Source: a virus
Direction: 5' to 3' (one strand)
Length of the DNA: 64,000 nucleotides
Virus record (IMG/VR): IMGVR_UViG_3300021960_000054
Coordinates: 1-64,000 of that record
Shown in pieces: positions 3,133-22,361 of this stretch (positions are counted from its first letter, which is position 1; each line of letters opens with the position of its first letter). The notes beneath the pieces were generated by a model that was given only the letters and a program-made list of their open reading frames with translations, did no database searches and was not told where the DNA came from. A program made the position numbers and the translations under genes.

Positions 3133-3768
3133 TCATATGCTACTATTTATACGACTTTCATCGTATTTCTGTTGTACAGTATACACTATTGCCTTGTATT
3201 TGTCAACATCAAAATCAAGAAAAGGTCGGTATTTAATTAACTTTCGCCGTTCTTCTTTCCAGAAGAAATCATCACCGAGCATCTTATCCCAATATGACAA
3301 GTAGTTGTTAATAGCATCTAGTATCAACATCGTTTCAATTTTTACATCTCCACGACTATACATCTGTAGTAATATAGGATGTTGTTCATCCTTTACCACA
3401 AAACATTTGTCGAACTTGTTGAAGTCTTCCTCTTCAAGTTCAGAACAAATTTCATCAAGGTCGTCTTTGAGATTTTTAGTTAAACTCTGTAGACGACCTC
3501 TCCAATTATTATATACTTGTAGTGCTTCTTCATAGATAAAAGCACCACCCCATCGATTACCATCGACATGATTGGCAATCAAAAACTTAGGTAGTTCAGT
3601 CTCATTAAACTCTTTTGCTAGACGTTGAAAATTAAACTGGTCAGACCTTTTGTAAAAAGTTTCATCTTTTGTCTTGACTGCGCCTCTAGTTTTTGTTATA
3701 TCATATCTATCTGTTGTAAAATGTAACTTAAAAGCAAGATAGATGTTGAATGCTTCAAATTCATTCAT
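3133..3768 (-). CDS. 59: gp59-like helicase loader
   Basis: About 211 residues from ATG 3768; T4 gp59 has 217. The ATG overlaps the preceding stop (ATGA), which decides between this start and one 24 nt upstream. The opening NEFEAFNIYLAFKLHF, KRSDQFNFQRLAKEF and the later LDAINNYLSYWDKML resemble the T4 protein in order and spacing. gp59 loads the gp41 helicase onto gp32-coated forks. Position next to gp32, with gp33 nearby, repeats the T4 order 33-59-32, though here two oxygenase genes separate 33 and 59. Confidence 0.85.
   Translation of the reverse strand: MNEFEAFNIYLAFKLHFTTDRYDITKTRGAVKTKDETFYKRSDQFNFQRLAKEFNETELPKFLIANHVDGNRWGGAFIYEEALQVYNNWRGRLQSLTKNLKDDLDEICSELEEEDFNKFDKCFVVKDEQHPILLQMYSRGDVKIETMLILDAINNYLSYWDKMLGDDFFWKEERRKLIKYRPFLDFDVDKYKAIVYTVQQKYDESRINSSI
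3144..3151 (-). promoter_or_regulatory. T4-type late promoter box for gp32
   Basis: TATAAATAG on the minus strand, overlapping the last codons of gp59 and 74 bp upstream of the gp32 start. Confidence 0.7.
3178..3206 (-). promoter_or_regulatory. Sigma70-type promoter inside gp59 driving gp32
   Basis: The minus strand shows TTGACA (3206-3201), a 17-nt spacer and TATACT (3183-3178), within the 3' part of gp59 and about 110 bp before gp32. Together with the late box this gives gp32 both early and late expression. Confidence 0.65.
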
Positions 3769-4361
3769 ACCCAAGGTTTTCCGCATACCCATCCGACTAA
3801 ACTCCTTCTCTCTCCGTTGATTACTGGTTTAACTCTATGCATTATAAATGATGGAAAGAGAATTGTCAATCCTTTTTGTGGCGAAATTGTTTTTATACGA
3901 TTATCACTATCAGGCAATCCATATTCAAACTCAAACTCACCACCTTCATAATCGTCATTCAATAATACTGAGAAAGATATTTTTCTAATCAACCCATGAA
4001 GTTCAACCATACTTACTTCATCTTTAGTATATGGATTTTCTTTTTGGTCGGAGTGCCAATTATAATGTTGTGTTTCACTATACCTTGTATATTGCAATTT
4101 CTCCATCACGCTATGCTGAAAATTCCAACCGGCGCCTTGATTTACTGTGGTCATTGCATCAATAAGTTTTTTATAAATCCATTTTGTATCTTGAGTATTT
4201 TCTATCCAAGAAATATGACTGTCTCTATAATTCTTACGAGCATTCCCATTAAAAGTTTTTGCTTGCTGTGGTTCTAATGCTTCACCAATTGAAGATATTT
4301 TAGTTAACTCTTCATCAGAAAATATTCTCTTATGTAAAAAATATGGTTGTCGTAAAATCAT
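3765..4361 (-). CDS. PKHD-type 2OG-Fe(II) oxygenase
   Basis: 198 residues with a prolyl-4-hydroxylase-like fold signature: iron-binding HSD in NWHSDQKEN, a strand pair RKISFSVLLNDDYEGGEFEF, then the distal His in FPSFIMHRVKPV and the 2OG-anchoring Arg in GERRSLVGWVCGKPW. These enzymes couple 2-oxoglutarate decarboxylation to hydroxylation of a protein or nucleic-acid target; the substrate here is unknown. It overlaps both neighbours by 4 nt and sits between gp33/oxygenase and gp59, so it is expressed with replication genes. Confidence 0.85.
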   Translation of the reverse strand: MILRQPYFLHKRIFSDEELTKISSIGEALEPQQAKTFNGNARKNYRDSHISWIENTQDTKWIYKKLIDAMTTVNQGAGWNFQHSVMEKLQYTRYSETQHYNWHSDQKENPYTKDEVSMVELHGLIRKISFSVLLNDDYEGGEFEFEYGLPDSDNRIKTISPQKGLTILFPSFIMHRVKPVINGERRSLVGWVCGKPWV

Positions 4362-4897
4362 TTCAATACTTTCATCATGTTAAATGCAATGGTAACTCTA
4401 TCTTCATCTTCAAAGTGTGGAGGCATCTTATGCATCAACCATCCAGGGAAGATGATACACTTACCTTTCTTTGCATTAATTCTTTCAGGTTGTTCATTAT
4501 ATATTTGTATGCGCGGATCAAAGAACTCTGTCATACCAATATCATCATAATAAAGAACTGCGGACAGCATCTTATCATCACCGTGTCGATGCATCTCATG
4601 TGTACACCCTCTAGGAACATAGTTGACCCATGAGTTATCTAGTACAACAGAAGTATTCATCTGAACACCCATAGTGTAAGCGACATTACCCAATAGTTTG
4701 TTTGTGGTGGGACCAACTTGTAGTCTATCGGGATTATTATAACTGGTGTAGTAGTGAAGAACACCTGATGGTAATCCAACTTCTCTGAACATGTCTAGTT
4801 CTTTTCTAGATGCATCTATGAAATCTTCATCAAATTGTATCTCATAGATGTGTGTAGGAAAAACACTATATGCAGTGAAGTCTAATGCATCAATCAT
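4358..4897 (-). CDS. 2OG-Fe(II) oxygenase-like protein
   Basis: 179 residues. The start SVFPTHIYEIQFDEDF is the opening seen in small phage 2OG-FeII_Oxy_5-type proteins. The metal site appears as HEMHRHGDDKMLSAVLYYDD followed by CIIFPGWLMHKMPPHF and the Arg in DRVTIAFN. The double-stranded beta-helix pattern is intact, so it is probably active, but the target is unknown. ATGA overlaps on both sides tie it to gp33 upstream and the PKHD gene downstream. Confidence 0.8.
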   Translation of the reverse strand: MIDALDFTAYSVFPTHIYEIQFDEDFIDASRKELDMFREVGLPSGVLHYYTSYNNPDRLQVGPTTNKLLGNVAYTMGVQMNTSVVLDNSWVNYVPRGCTHEMHRHGDDKMLSAVLYYDDIGMTEFFDPRIQIYNEQPERINAKKGKCIIFPGWLMHKMPPHFEDEDRVTIAFNMMKVLK

Positions 4898-5699: not shown

Positions 5700-5719
5700 G
5701 CAGAAACCACTTGACTTCT
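5681..5719 (-). terminator. Intrinsic terminator overlapping a promoter
   Basis: Minus strand AGAAGTCAAG and CTTGACTTCT pair perfectly over 10 bp around a 9-nt loop, followed by the U-rich TTCTTCTTTT. It ends the gene at 5733 and the tmRNA transcript. Its 3' arm supplies the TTGACT box of the next promoter. Confidence 0.75.
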
Positions 5720-5732
5720 CATTATTACCACC

Positions 5733-5951
5733 TTAGCGTTGTGAAACGAAAGAATTCATCTCATTTGCTAGTTTGCTGATATCACCGAATGTCGGAAATG
5801 TAGGCATTTCTGGAAACTGAACATCTAGTCCTGCTTCTTTGTCTGCATAGTATTTCTCTTTAATATTGCTGATATCAGTGTGATATTGCTCTGTGAGCAG
5901 TTGTTTAGCACTCTCAATCATAGAGAAGCGCAAATCGAATGGATTACTCAT
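5733..5951 (-). CDS. Conserved small phage protein, function unknown
   Basis: 72 residues starting MSNPFDLRFSMIESAKQLL behind a strong AAGGAGAAATAGT ribosome site. The first half is amphipathic helix; the second half contains a Pro/Phe-rich stretch (FPEMPTFPTFGD). I recall similar short proteins in marine T4-like phages but know no function. It is the first gene after the tmRNA on the same strand and would share its transcript. Confidence 0.8.
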   Translation of the reverse strand: MSNPFDLRFSMIESAKQLLTEQYHTDISNIKEKYYADKEAGLDVQFPEMPTFPTFGDISKLANEMNSFVSQR

Positions 5952-5999
5952 ACTATTTCTCCTTGTGTGTATGTGTGTAAAATGTAGGGTGAAGCAATT

Positions 6000-6350
6000 G
6001 CTTCTTCTGTTTCCAGGCGCCCCTACGACACCCAGAAGATTATGCCGCTAGGCGAATATCTTCATATGCAATGTTATCGTTTGCATTTACTTTGTTTTGA
6101 CTTATTAGGCGGTCATCCCACAGTTCTACTCTTTCCTATTTACGTCAGTCGATCCTATTTCGCCCCCATCATAAGCACACTTCCGTGCCATATCTCTACC
6201 GAGATATCCAGGTTGTGGTTTCACCTTAATAAACTTTGAGACCCAATTTGCAAATGCTTCTAGCATGTTTACCTCTAGTGTGTTTATGGTGGAGGCGGTG
6301 GGTATCGCACCCACGTCCTGCCCGTCATTCAGATTGTATCAACAAACTGT
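6000..6350 (-). ncRNA. ssrA: Circularly permuted (two-piece) tmRNA
   Basis: In transcript order the acceptor piece comes first (about 6350-6287): T-arm GTGGG-TGCGATA-CCCAC, then CGCCTCC-A-CCA ending at 6287. After a ~119-nt intervening segment the coding piece begins at 6167 with GGGGGCG, which pairs with CGCCTCC over 7 bp (one G-U), then the tmRNA-type D-loop GGATCGAC. Upstream of the tag is a GTGGGATGACCGCC knot-like region. The resume codon GCA is at 6084-6082, and the tag reads ANDNIAYEDIRLAA with TAA at 6042-6040. A hairpin (CTTCTG/CAGAAG) closes the 3' part. The LAA end suits ClpXP. Permuted order and an ANDN tag are typical of alphaproteobacteria. tmRNA with SmpB rescues stalled ribosomes; no smpB is seen here. 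Confidence 0.92.
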
Positions 6351-6356
6351 ACATTA

Positions 6357-6385
6357 TATATAACATGCTTTGATGTAAATGTCAA
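6357..6385 (-). promoter_or_regulatory. Sigma70-type promoter of the tmRNA
   Basis: TTGACA (6385-6380), 17 nt, then TATATA (6362-6357) on the minus strand. The -35 overlaps the stop of the gene at 6382. Transcription would start near 6350, just before the tmRNA acceptor piece. Confidence 0.7.
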
Positions 6386-6747
6386 GTAGTAATTCCATTA
6401 TTACCAAAAATACTGTTATACTCTAATTCACCTCCATCTGATATAACGCAAGTTACATTTGCTGATGGAAGAAATTCTAATATTGTGACTGTACCTTTGT
6501 CTTTGTTAACTAGAACTTCGACAATACTAGGTAGTGTAGTTTTGTATCTAATCATTCCAACTTCGCCGTACTCATTCGCAAATTCTGCTTTTACTTCGTT
6601 GTATGGTTTCTTAGTACAGACAACAGGTTTTTGTCCTTGTCTATATTCATGTTCTGAATTATCTTGAGCAAATGTGATGCTGGATAAAAATGTTAGACAC
6701 CATACCAATACAATAACATCAAATACCCATGACTTTCTGATATTCAT
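6382..6747 (-). CDS. Secreted hypothetical protein
   Basis: 121 residues with a clear signal peptide (charged MNIRKSW, hydrophobic FDVIVLVWCLTFLSSITF, cleavage near TFA-QDN). The mature part has two cysteines (VVCTKKP, VTCVIS) and a beta-rich pattern, so it is probably a small periplasmic or surface domain with one disulfide. It overlaps the upstream nuclease gene by 29 nt. No family recognised. Confidence 0.75.
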   Translation of the reverse strand: MNIRKSWVFDVIVLVWCLTFLSSITFAQDNSEHEYRQGQKPVVCTKKPYNEVKAEFANEYGEVGMIRYKTTLPSIVEVLVNKDKGTVTILEFLPSANVTCVISDGGELEYNSIFGNNGITT

Positions 6748-7375
6748 TTCGAACCTCTCTATAGGACTCTATATAATTGTCCCTCTTCTCTATGAAGAGT
6801 TGTGGTTCGTTACCTTCTACTGCCATTATAATAACGACAGTATCAATTGGTATACCTGTTCTCTCTTCATACATTACTGCATATGCACTACCTTGTTGAA
6901 AGTAGTTGGTAATGTACTCTGCTTGTTTAGGTCTGCTAGAGGTCTTAAAATCAATAATTGAAAGGCGACCATCAAACTCTGCAATACAGTCTACACGACC
7001 GGCAGTCTTCAAGAAGTCTGAATATAGTGATGCTTCTTGAACATGTATATTATTTATCCTGTTTAGATAATCTTGAACTGAAGTAAACATAGACTTCTCT
7101 GCAGGATTAGCAAAAGTAACATCTTTGTTGTTAATGTAGTCTTCTACTTGATAATGAAACTTAGTTCCTCGCGTGGATGCTTGGCGACTAATCTTGTTCG
7201 CCGCTTCTTCACCTACTCGTTTGCGCCACTCTAGAATGCCTGCTTTAGACTTCCATCCTAGTACTGTTGTTACTGATGGATATTTTAATCCCTCAGGTGT
7301 CACATACAAACGCATGTTGTCTTCATTGATTGTTTGTAGTTCATCGATTTCTTTTGGTTCAAGATGTGTAAACAT
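6719..7375 (-). CDS. PD-(D/E)XK superfamily nuclease
   Basis: 218 residues. The RecB/Cas4-like nuclease core is visible: TRGTKFHYQVEDYI (His motif), GRVDCIAEFDGRLSIIDFKT with the D...D-F-K-T catalytic pair near residue 142, and a following Gln (FQQGSAYAVMY). Upstream, YPSVTTVLG and EWRKRVGEEAAN are typical of phage exonucleases of this family. It probably processes DNA ends or degrades host DNA. It overlaps neighbours on both sides. Confidence 0.85.
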   Translation of the reverse strand: MFTHLEPKEIDELQTINEDNMRLYVTPEGLKYPSVTTVLGWKSKAGILEWRKRVGEEAANKISRQASTRGTKFHYQVEDYINNKDVTFANPAEKSMFTSVQDYLNRINNIHVQEASLYSDFLKTAGRVDCIAEFDGRLSIIDFKTSSRPKQAEYITNYFQQGSAYAVMYEERTGIPIDTVVIIMAVEGNEPQLFIEKRDNYIESYREVRNEYQKVMGI

Positions 7376-7985
7376 GTTCTATCCAGTTGTGGTTGTTTTC
7401 GCGAAAGTATTCATAAAATCTCATTGGGTAAATTTGAATGCCAATATTAATTTTAGGTTGTTCACCAAGATATACGTTAGTATCATGAGTGACCCATGAA
7501 GGAAAGATTGTGAGGTCTCCCACATTATCAATAATATTTAAGTATTCATCTCTGCTAGAGATATGATATCTTGTTTCTGAGTTTGGATCATACCCTCTTA
7601 CATAGATATTAGCACTAAGAAATGAGTAAGTACCAATATCGTGTGGGTGTTTTTTTATTTGTTCACCTTTACGGGTGACATCATACCAAGAATGAATAAA
7701 AACTTTTTCTTTCATATTACCTGTTAGTGTACAATACTTTTGGTAGTTTGTCAAGAGTTTTTTTCGAATATCCGCAATAATTTCATTATCTGGATATCTG
7801 GTGAATATGTTGCAATCAACCGCGTCTTCATTAATTAGAAATTCGTAAAGAACACGCTCATTGAAATCTATCTTAAATAATCCTATACTAAATTCGCGAT
7901 AAGGAATAGAGAAGGAACTTATCTCTGGTTTAGTTTCATATGTAAAGATTTCGTAGTCTTCTGTAAAGTTACTATTAAATATCAT
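7359..7985 (-). CDS. 2OG-Fe(II) oxygenase-like protein
   Basis: 208 residues. The second half has a jelly-roll oxygenase pattern: HSWYDVTRKGEQIKKHPHD with candidate iron ligands, SANIYVRGYDP, and FPSWVTHDTNVYLGE with the distal His. The final Arg usual for 2OG binding is replaced by Lys in GEQPKINIGIQIYP, so activity is less certain. The N-terminal 80 residues are unrelated to other oxygenases here. Coupled by overlaps to the nuclease and another oxygenase. Confidence 0.65.
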   Translation of the reverse strand: MIFNSNFTEDYEIFTYETKPEISSFSIPYREFSIGLFKIDFNERVLYEFLINEDAVDCNIFTRYPDNEIIADIRKKLLTNYQKYCTLTGNMKEKVFIHSWYDVTRKGEQIKKHPHDIGTYSFLSANIYVRGYDPNSETRYHISSRDEYLNIIDNVGDLTIFPSWVTHDTNVYLGEQPKINIGIQIYPMRFYEYFRENNHNWIEHVYTS

Positions 7986-8611
7986 CTAGGAATTTCCAAC
8001 GAAACTATATCGTCTAATCTCTCATCATTACCACAAGTTTTTTCGAATATAAACTTCTGACAATTATCTAAGTAGATACATTGAAACACCAATGCAACTC
8101 GCATTTCTTTAGTTGAGGTTGTTGATAGTCCTCTATGTTTTACTTTGGCGTCAAAATATGAAAAGTAATCTTGCATATATGGAGTTTCTTCAACCGAACC
8201 ATCAGCAAATTCAAATTCAGTACCCATATGTTTATGGTGAGGATTAAAACAAGGATAGTAAACAATAGTTCTACAGTTTTCTTCAGCACTGTCGGTGTGC
8301 CAAGGTCCATCCATCTCTTTAGTTTGACCTAAAAGATAACATCGCCCAACTTGAATGTATGGATTGATGTCCAGTTTCTGACAAATTTTTTTCCATATCT
8401 CTTTTACTATAGGGTCCATCTTAGTATAATATAGATTGTTGTGATAATCAGAAACAAAGTATGACCGGTGTGCATACTTACCTTCAGCACCAGCGCCATA
8501 CTGCCACAAAAACTGACGCTGGAAATACTCTGAGAAGAATTTTCTCATCTCCTCAGAGTGTCCCGCATTTTCAAACATCACTTCAGGTAGTTCATTATTA
8601 AGTTTTGTCAT
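7982..8611 (-). CDS. 2OG-Fe(II) oxygenase
   Basis: 209 residues. The iron site reads WHTDSAEENCRTIVYYP (H-x-D), with the distal His in DAKVKHRGLS and the Arg in KEMRVALVFQ. YIQVGRCYLLGQTKEMDGP before the H-x-D resembles phage phytanoyl/prolyl-hydroxylase-like proteins. The substrate is unknown. Its stop overlaps the start of the next oxygenase by 4 nt, so two different oxygenases are made together here. Confidence 0.8.
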   Translation of the reverse strand: MTKLNNELPEVMFENAGHSEEMRKFFSEYFQRQFLWQYGAGAEGKYAHRSYFVSDYHNNLYYTKMDPIVKEIWKKICQKLDINPYIQVGRCYLLGQTKEMDGPWHTDSAEENCRTIVYYPCFNPHHKHMGTEFEFADGSVEETPYMQDYFSYFDAKVKHRGLSTTSTKEMRVALVFQCIYLDNCQKFIFEKTCGNDERLDDIVSLEIPR

Positions 8612-21459: not shown

Positions 21460-21546
21460 GCGCCCGTGGCGGAATAGGTAGACGCAACGGACTTAAAATC
21501 CGTTATCGATTACGGTGTGTGGGTTCGAGTCCCTCCGGGCGCACCA
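21460..21546 (+). tRNA. tRNA-Leu (UAA)
   Basis: 87 nt with acceptor GCGCCCG/CGGGCGC, discriminator A and encoded CCA. The anticodon arm ACGGA-CTTAAAA-TCCGT gives anticodon UAA. A long variable arm (class II) and T-loop GGTTCGAGTCC are present. UUA is a favoured Leu codon in AT-rich genomes. Confidence 0.97.
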
Positions 21547-21571
21547 AATATATATTACAAGGAGATGATAA

Positions 21572-21787
21572 ATGTTACACAAGATATCTGATTTATGTGA
21601 TAGAATTGATGCCATAAAGTTTCAAGCGGATAGATTGCGAGAAGCAAAATATGGTCCAAACAAAAGAGACGGCGCAGAAGTACAAGCACTCATTGATGAT
21701 ATTCAAGCGATGTGTTATACTGTTGCGAATGACAAATCGAAATACCAGAGAGTGTCTTACTTAGAAGGTGGACAGTTTCAAGAGTAA
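21572..21787 (+). CDS. Small hypothetical protein
   Basis: 71 residues behind AAGGAGATGATAA. Helical (LCDRIDAIKFQADRLREAKY, EVQALIDDIQAMCYTV). It sits between two tRNAs. Function unknown. Confidence 0.7.
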   Translation: MLHKISDLCDRIDAIKFQADRLREAKYGPNKRDGAEVQALIDDIQAMCYTVANDKSKYQRVSYLEGGQFQE

Positions 21788-21793
21788 AAGTAT

Positions 21794-21870
21794 CTGCCCG
21801 TAGTTCAGTTGGATAGAACAACGGATTTCTAATCCGTAGGCCGTGGGTTCGAATCCTACCGGGCAGGCCA
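21794..21870 (+). tRNA. tRNA-Arg (UCU)
   Basis: 77 nt. Acceptor CTGCCCG/CGGGCAG, discriminator G, encoded CCA. Anticodon arm ACGGA-TTTCTAA-TCCGT gives UCU, which reads AGA/AGG, the codons dominating Arg in this sequence. T-loop GGTTCGAATCC. Confidence 0.97.
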
Positions 21871-21874
21871 ATTT

Positions 21875-21948
21875 AGGGGAATGGTGTACTGGTATCACGG
21901 TAGTCTCCAAAACTACAGAATGAGGTTCGATTCCTTGTTCCCCTGCCA
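21875..21948 (+). tRNA. tRNA-Trp (CCA)
   Basis: 74 nt. Acceptor AGGGGAA/TTCCCCT, discriminator G, encoded CCA. Anticodon arm GTAGT-CTCCAAA-ACTAC gives CCA. T-loop GGTTCGATTCC. It follows tRNA-Arg by 4 nt, so the two are probably processed from one transcript. Confidence 0.96.
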
Positions 21949-21966
21949 AATAGATGAGGACGTAAC

Positions 21967-22284
21967 ATGAGTAATGCATACGGAAAAACAAGGTTCGATT
22001 TAGAACATGCGTTGAATGATATTCGCACAACGGCAACGGACATTCAGACTGTTGCGGATATGATGTACGACAGTACTCTTATCTATAATGAAGACCGAAC
22101 CCATACTGTTCTTAGTGGTCTAGCAGAAGTGTTAGAAGCAAAGTGTGAGAAAGCAGATATGATATTCAAAATGCTTTTTGAACTAGACGAATACAATCAT
22201 CAGTATTACAAAGATGCTGATGGAACTTTGCGTTGGCGAGACACAGACCAACCATTAGAGTCCCAACTGTGGGATAAAGTTTAA
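21967..22284 (+). CDS. Hypothetical protein
   Basis: 105 residues behind GATGAGGACGTAAC. Helical, with DIRTTATDIQTVADMMYD and LAEVLEAKCEKADMIFKMLF, then an Asp-rich C-terminus (YYKDADGTLRWRDTDQ). Its TAA touches the first base of tRNA-Pro. Function unknown. Confidence 0.75.
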   Translation: MSNAYGKTRFDLEHALNDIRTTATDIQTVADMMYDSTLIYNEDRTHTVLSGLAEVLEAKCEKADMIFKMLFELDEYNHQYYKDADGTLRWRDTDQPLESQLWDKV

Positions 22285-22361
22285 CGGAGATTAGCGCAGT
22301 CTGGTAGCGCATCTGCTTTGGGAGCAGAGGGTCGTTGGTTCGAATCCAGCATCTCCGACCA
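22285..22361 (+). tRNA. tRNA-Pro (UGG)
   Basis: 77 nt. Acceptor CGGAGAT/ATCTCCG, discriminator A, encoded CCA. Anticodon arm TCTGC-TTTGGGA-GCAGA gives UGG. T-loop GGTTCGAATCC. There is no gap to the preceding stop codon. Confidence 0.97.

Follow-up and report, generated by a model that had tools for sequence, protein, structure and literature searches.

Purifying selection points to a small protein gene in the intervening segment of a phage-encoded permuted tmRNA

We analyzed the first 64,000 nucleotides (nt) of the 72,046-base virus contig IMGVR_UViG_3300021960_000054 (positions 1 to 64,000; hereafter, the window) and found that its minus strand carries a phage-encoded, permuted two-piece transfer-messenger RNA (tmRNA) of the alphaproteobacterial type at 6348–6040, with a tag ending in LAA. 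As the initial annotation had claimed, the acceptor piece precedes the coding piece, and both Rfam models and ARAGORN agree on this order. RF04321 covers the tRNA-like domain and the coding piece up to the tag stop (6040–6348, 111.7 bits, E 5.8e-21), while the alpha_tmRNA model RF01849 extends over 5996–6389 (model positions 1–355 of 355, 109.7 bits, E 4.7e-29); both matches are full-length and above the gathering score, so the proposed covariance check bears the annotation out. The acceptor piece (6287–6348) comprises an intact T-arm, CGCCTCC (6297–6291), A at 6290 and CCA (6289–6287). The predicted pairing of CGCCTCC with GGGGGCG, the 5' acceptor strand that starts the coding piece (6161–6167), can be read directly in the sequence, and the stem contains a G3.U70 pair, the identity pair for alanine. 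ARAGORN calls a tmRNA* with the tag ANDNIAYEDIRLAA (6084–6043) followed by TAA (6042–6040), the LAA-type tag that had been proposed. A glutamine riboswitch was not matched by Rfam at gathering score in the window or at E ≤5 in 5700–6750.

Between the CCA and the 5' acceptor strand lies an intervening segment of 119 nt (6168–6286), both ends of which pair and extend the acceptor stem. The segment holds an open reading frame (ORF) that the initial annotation did not mention: 46 codons (6126–6266, minus strand) led by a Shine-Dalgarno (SD)-like AGAGG (6272–6276), with a tail that enters the tmRNA 5' piece and reaches its stop at 6128–6126. A coordinate error was considered for this ORF and rejected. 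The first 27 codons are common to relatives, and changes counted over codons 2–27 along a spanning tree that joins 5 unique sequences are 14 synonymous against 3 replacement (p 1e-7). Among the matches listed (at least 120 candidate stretches), the ORF starts 19–20 nt after the CCA in 8 of 8 relatives, and all 8 have both tmRNA ends around it. The substitution pattern thus indicates a protein-coding gene in the intervening segment, under purifying selection in one frame. We refer to such genes as cargo.

Do other phage tmRNAs carry ORFs at this position? We took segments from viral contigs with a 20-base tmRNA pattern and used bacterial genomes scanned with the same pattern as a control; both samples are the matches listed, so that site totals are lower bounds (at least 120 viral and at least 118 bacterial sites). 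Among these matches, an acceptor was recognisable in 106 viral sites, with a median segment of 79 nt and 38 segments of 100 nt or more, and in 112 bacterial sites, with a median of 34 nt and only 2 segments of that length. Thus, although the window matches the full-length alphaproteobacterial models, bacterial tmRNAs of this type differ from it by their short segments. Of the 61 unique viral segments at least 60 nt long, 21 had an SD-led ORF of at least 25 amino acids (aa), compared with 6.1 ± 2.4 (maximum 9) across 20 shuffles; none of the 9 bacterial segments of this length had one (1.5 in shuffles). In a wider bacterial sample, the class of a SAR116 genome, RF04321 matched 270 of 289 genomes, and two places longer than 300 nt were seen by eye among the best-scoring matches listed; these two and one further long bacterial segment (L502–L504, L-numbers being labels of sampled loci or stretches) lacked an SD-led ORF. 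The L505 pair, a 10-nt match on the other strand, was uninformative. In the first viral sample, 20 of 94 unique segments held an ORF belonging to a multi-member cluster, six of them through an overlapping frame (cluster 0) only.

We added two further pattern scans, the second of which requires an SD after the CCA, so that SD frequency in that scan is set by construction. This SD-requiring pattern also picked up L383 and L367, which we rejected as their records have no tmRNA match. Segments were obtained from 275 of the 354 loci listed (207 unique; two copies of the window's record were skipped). SD-led ORFs were clustered, and synonymous and replacement changes were compared on disjoint pairs, dropping pairs with divergence below 0.02 or above 0.35. 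Replacement changes were depleted in the TM family (ratio 0.16, 12 pairs, p 6.6e-34), a 35-aa family (ratio 0.12, 3 pairs, p 1.4e-5), a 77-aa family (ratio 0.04, 1 pair, p 9e-14), the window cluster with its tail included (ratio 0.30, 2 pairs, p 0.0015), cluster 6 (ratio 0.17, p 0.024) and cluster 10 (ratio 0.29, p 0.022). Twelve unique cores of the 77-aa family within segments gave 114 synonymous and 56 replacement changes (ratio 0.10, p 1e-47). The cluster 0 frame, considered as a further gene, was near-neutral (ratio 0.89, p 0.26) and was rejected; as an overlapping frame, it serves as a negative control. By these substitution patterns, several cargo families evolve under purifying selection.

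Pfam, PHROGs and tblastn against phages returned no convincing relatives of the short cargo families. A free-standing 119-aa relative of the second ORF of L016 matches phage Melnitz and, weakly, phage C48C1. By eye, several cargo proteins look like membrane peptides. In L536 (2642–3243), two adjacent membrane-like genes of 119 and 80 codons, also judged by eye, lie beside a gene that we take to be IscA-like, in a stretch where no tmRNA was called; homologues of this pair occur as tmRNA cargo in L016 (second ORF) and L132.

We then located cargo families by searches with the cargo protein only, blind to the tmRNA, and assigned position by strict motifs for the CCA and the 5' piece. The 77-aa protein lay between CCA and 5' piece in 26 of 32 loci, and the TM family in 57 of the 80 loci kept (270 found). 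We examined 24 of the 29 other loci of these two families, leaving out L518, L547, L553, L584 and L612. In three (L608, L586 and L588) the cargo lies within a segment that the motifs had missed; in L517, L519, L556, L567, L568, L581 and L594 a tmRNA is called downstream of it, and L583 and L585 are similar to L581. For the other 12, among them L535–L537, L539 and L540, no tmRNA was called in the fetched stretch, and one of these (L587) may be a chance match. A third small family with a YEDLCM-like ending had both tmRNA ends in 3 of 10 loci, neither in 6, and only the downstream end in 1, a locus cut by the stretch. All 13 cargo-bearing relatives scanned passed the RF04321 gathering score.

Is the cargo exchanged between tmRNAs? 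Comparison of 220 unique flank/segment combinations, with flanks of 60 nt before and 150 nt after the segment, gave 76 pairs with near-identical flanks, and in 28 of these the segments were less than 60% identical; alignments between unrelated sequences can reach about 50% identity, so that pairs close to 0.59 may still be distantly related. The flanks of L063, L096 and L145 are identical over the full 60 + 150 nt, but L063 holds a 35-aa gene, L096 a 47-codon ORF from a different family, and L145 a segment of just 32 nt. In L341 and L520–L522, a window-family gene is followed by a 77-aa gene in one segment, with a stop/start overlap, GTGA. L127 looks like a deletion derivative of this gene pair, and the window copy like a further deletion derivative whose ORF now enters the tmRNA. 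The direction of these changes, and recombination as their route, we infer.

The initial annotation also proposed that the tmRNA has its own promoter. A sigma-70-like site is present upstream on the minus strand (6357–6385; TTGACA at 6385–6380, a 17-nt spacer and TATATA at 6362–6357), and of 190 unique phage stretches, 169 have a similar site, with at most 2 mismatches, located 25–120 nt before the T-arm (mononucleotide shuffles, n=20: mean 41.5, maximum 54), as do 51 of 113 bacterial stretches. A consensus promoter scan, which requires the second hexamer to end in T, did not list the window site; its promoter-like sites numbered 4, against 5.1 in shuffles. The absence of a visible smpB held up over the whole record: an SmpB search that was positive in 10 of 14 control genomes found no match in its 72,046 bases, possibly a fragment of a genome, and use of host SmpB by the tmRNA would be the natural consequence.

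Judging from its genes, the window belongs to a T4-like phage contig with T4-like genes on both sides of the tmRNA, including a single-strand DNA-binding protein, helicase loader, late-transcription coactivator, endolysin, exonuclease, UvsX, replicative helicase and ribonucleotide reductase. Over 6.1 kb around the tmRNA, DNA similarity is best to the Pelagibacter phages HTVC008M and Mosig, followed by Melnitz and cyanophages. The downstream gene (5733–5951, minus strand) encodes 72 aa, had no PHROG or Pfam match in profile searches and served as a neighbour marker for finding relatives; several contigs carry both this gene and the tmRNA. Nearby, 2OG-Fe(II) oxygenase family matches lie at 3765–4361, 4358–4897 and 7359–7985, and an endonuclease V family match at 7982–8611. 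Genes for tRNA-Leu, tRNA-Arg, tRNA-Trp and tRNA-Pro cluster at 21460–22361. The sampled contigs are mostly fragments. Among 16 cargo or neighbour records, gp23 was found in 3 and terminase in 5; UvsX-family matches occurred in 5 of the 11 records without terminase, one of them weak, but this family also matches all 14 cellular controls.

A permuted tmRNA in a phage is real here, as first annotated, but is not new. A two-piece tmRNA of Melnitz is in print (PMC9004378) and SsrA is annotated in the Mosig GenBank record. The Melnitz paper counts 402 phage genomes with tmRNA among 18,146 and classes 53 of 133 unique structures as two-piece; of 47 Melnitz-like contigs, 17 carry a permuted tmRNA (PMC9004378). 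In our searches, Rfam permuted tmRNA matched all 7 published phage stretches scanned (HTVC008M, vB_RpoS-V10, MD18, RcXuper, RcRudolph, Cp1R7A-A1 and BL64). That of HTVC008M (L623 4162–4371, 90.6 bits, short tag ANFNEYALAA) is absent from the KC465899 annotation. In Ruegeria phage vB_RpoS-V10 (L617 709–1142) and Phaeobacter phage MD18 (L621 619–1086), a GOLLD RNA lies about 200–270 nt upstream of the permuted tmRNA, and no tmRNA is annotated in either stretch. Like the window, Melnitz, Mosig and HTVC008M (Kyanoviridae) have two-piece tmRNAs with LAA-ending tags, and Mosig and HTVC008M share with it an exonuclease upstream and a late-transcription gene downstream. In Melnitz the segment is 142 nt long and contains a distinct 54-codon ORF of a related type, with no coding sequence annotated inside the tmRNA feature; unlike the window, HTVC008M (49 nt) and Mosig (44 nt) have segments without a comparable ORF. 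Melnitz also differs by its reported glutamine riboswitch (PMC9004378), none having been found at the window tmRNA.

A parallel is known for protein genes within tmRNA sequence. Some tmRNA genes contain group I introns, and a small number of these encode homing endonucleases (PMC11915505); like the window gene, these lie within tmRNA sequence removed by maturation, but the intron is self-splicing and sits in the T-loop, whereas the window gene sits in the permuted-gene linker, and the window-type cargo is short and has no convincing Pfam or PHROG match. As contents of permuted-tmRNA segments, the same paper notes a tRNA-Ala in one case and a repetitive element in a second (PMC11915505). We found no mention of protein genes in this segment in the literature searched, which excluded most subscription papers and all preprints. 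The small gene inside the segment looks like the new part of this locus, and a cargo gene within a phage permuted tmRNA seems not to have been described before.

Could folding of the precursor regulate the cargo? Segment ends extend the acceptor stem: over 12 positions, the paired fraction is 0.897 for 163 unique phage segments, versus 0.674 with partners shuffled, and 0.725 versus 0.486 for 86 bacterial segments. In 71 unique segments beginning NAAGGAG, the SD itself lies within this extension, and in the TM family the opposite strand is formed by the last codons of the cargo. Covariation support is modest in this class (0.946 paired versus 0.886), because the segments are related and shuffled partners already pair at 0.886. 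The predicted unpaired probability of the SD in the NAAGGAG class has a median of 0.66 when 60 nt of the segment have been transcribed, and of 0.00 for the full precursor, where it falls below 0.2 in 65 of 67 segments. SD shutting, although expected, is not predicted for the window copy (0.32 nascent, 0.78 in the full precursor, computed on the identical stretch L129): its SD lies just inside the loop, and the start codon is predicted to be mostly paired in both states (unpaired 0.16 and 0.14). Nor is shutting predicted for most of 12 single examples with the SD inside the loop, with nascent and full-precursor values of 0.37 and 0.74 (L127), 0.57 and 0.69 (L341), 0.77 and 0.70 (L044), 0.45 and 0.40 (L096), 0.78 and 0.53 (L132), and 1.00 and 0.63 (L307). 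The folding models thus make a switch plausible for the TM and 35-aa classes, and not for the window copy.

How far does the evidence favor a functional tmRNA whose segment serves as an exchangeable cargo bay? Several observations weigh against this reading. Many phage segments are short and lack an ORF, and the bacterial ORF control comprises only 9 segments, with 0 found against 1.5 in shuffles. Clusters 3 (ratio 0.36, p 0.081) and 7 (ratio 0.21, p 0.14) are not significant alone, and no pairs were usable for clusters 8 and 9. Members of the cargo families are also found outside tmRNA, 6 of the 16 cargo-related records had no match in three phage-marker searches, and ARAGORN missed 6 of 25 tmRNAs in the relatives' upstream stretches, some because these 470-nt stretches cut longer tmRNAs. 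The window cargo itself looks shortened, for L127 and L341 encode 41 aa with their own stop, while the window frame runs into the tmRNA. The segments without ORFs, together with the long bacterial segments without SD-led ORFs, would suit an ordinary phage permuted tmRNA whose linker is longer but non-coding, with ORFs that reflect chance or RNA-structure constraint. We consider this unlikely because the synonymous bias is found in the ORF frames and is absent from the overlapping frame, cargo homologues also occur in stretches without a called tmRNA, and SD-led ORFs exceed shuffles.

Alternatively, the tmRNA halves could act chiefly as processing signals that free a cargo mini-mRNA, with ribosome rescue secondary or lost. 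In the TM family, the stop is the TGA of a TGAT that immediately precedes the 5' piece (position −1 in all 26), and the excised segment would therefore span SD to stop. For the window ORF and for families with stops at +13, however, processing would remove the stop codon; moreover, short segments persist with the same tmRNA, and Rfam matches both the tRNA-like domain and the tag region of cargo-bearing relatives, with ARAGORN tags in 19 of 25, all of which makes this possibility improbable. Capture of a host tmRNA at a prophage junction or by mis-assembly is the least credible alternative, and we regard it as very improbable: bacterial tmRNA genes are known prophage integration sites (PMC9004378), but T4-like genes flank the window tmRNA on both sides, the order exonuclease, tmRNA, late-transcription gene is the same in Mosig and HTVC008M, and several contigs share the neighbour gene and the tmRNA. 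The intact tmRNA, the purifying selection on several cargo families, their frequent location in the segment and the different contents between identical flanks are all apparent in the sequences, and we think it probable that the phage tmRNA functions in rescue and that its segment is an exchangeable cargo bay.

What might a cargo-bearing tmRNA do? The two-piece tmRNA made by a T4-like phage would act together with host SmpB and alanyl-tRNA synthetase to rescue stalled ribosomes and to add an LAA-type degradation tag; that the phage may redirect tagging, as the initial annotation suggested, is a further possibility. The intervening segment, removed in maturation, may double as a cargo bay for a small protein-coding phage gene whose own ribosome-binding site closely follows the CCA. 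Translation of the cargo would use the precursor, or else the excised piece, and would precede or replace maturation. Related phages would swap, double or delete cargo with the tmRNA halves unchanged, because content between the halves is tolerated. Expression of the cargo, processing of the RNA and the roles of the cargo proteins are what this scheme presumes. More tentatively, and with somewhat less than even confidence, we suggest regulated cargo bays, in which genes are exchanged across tmRNA halves and the SD-first class would be translated only from the nascent, unfolded precursor until folding shuts it, so that one transcript would yield either protein or tmRNA. The small-gene families in tmRNA segments, in marine phage contigs and unannotated in Melnitz, would offer a new place to search for phage accessory genes and would explain why an otherwise conserved RNA gene has a variable insert. 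A cargo-bearing tmRNA would also be a natural experiment coupling translation with RNA maturation.
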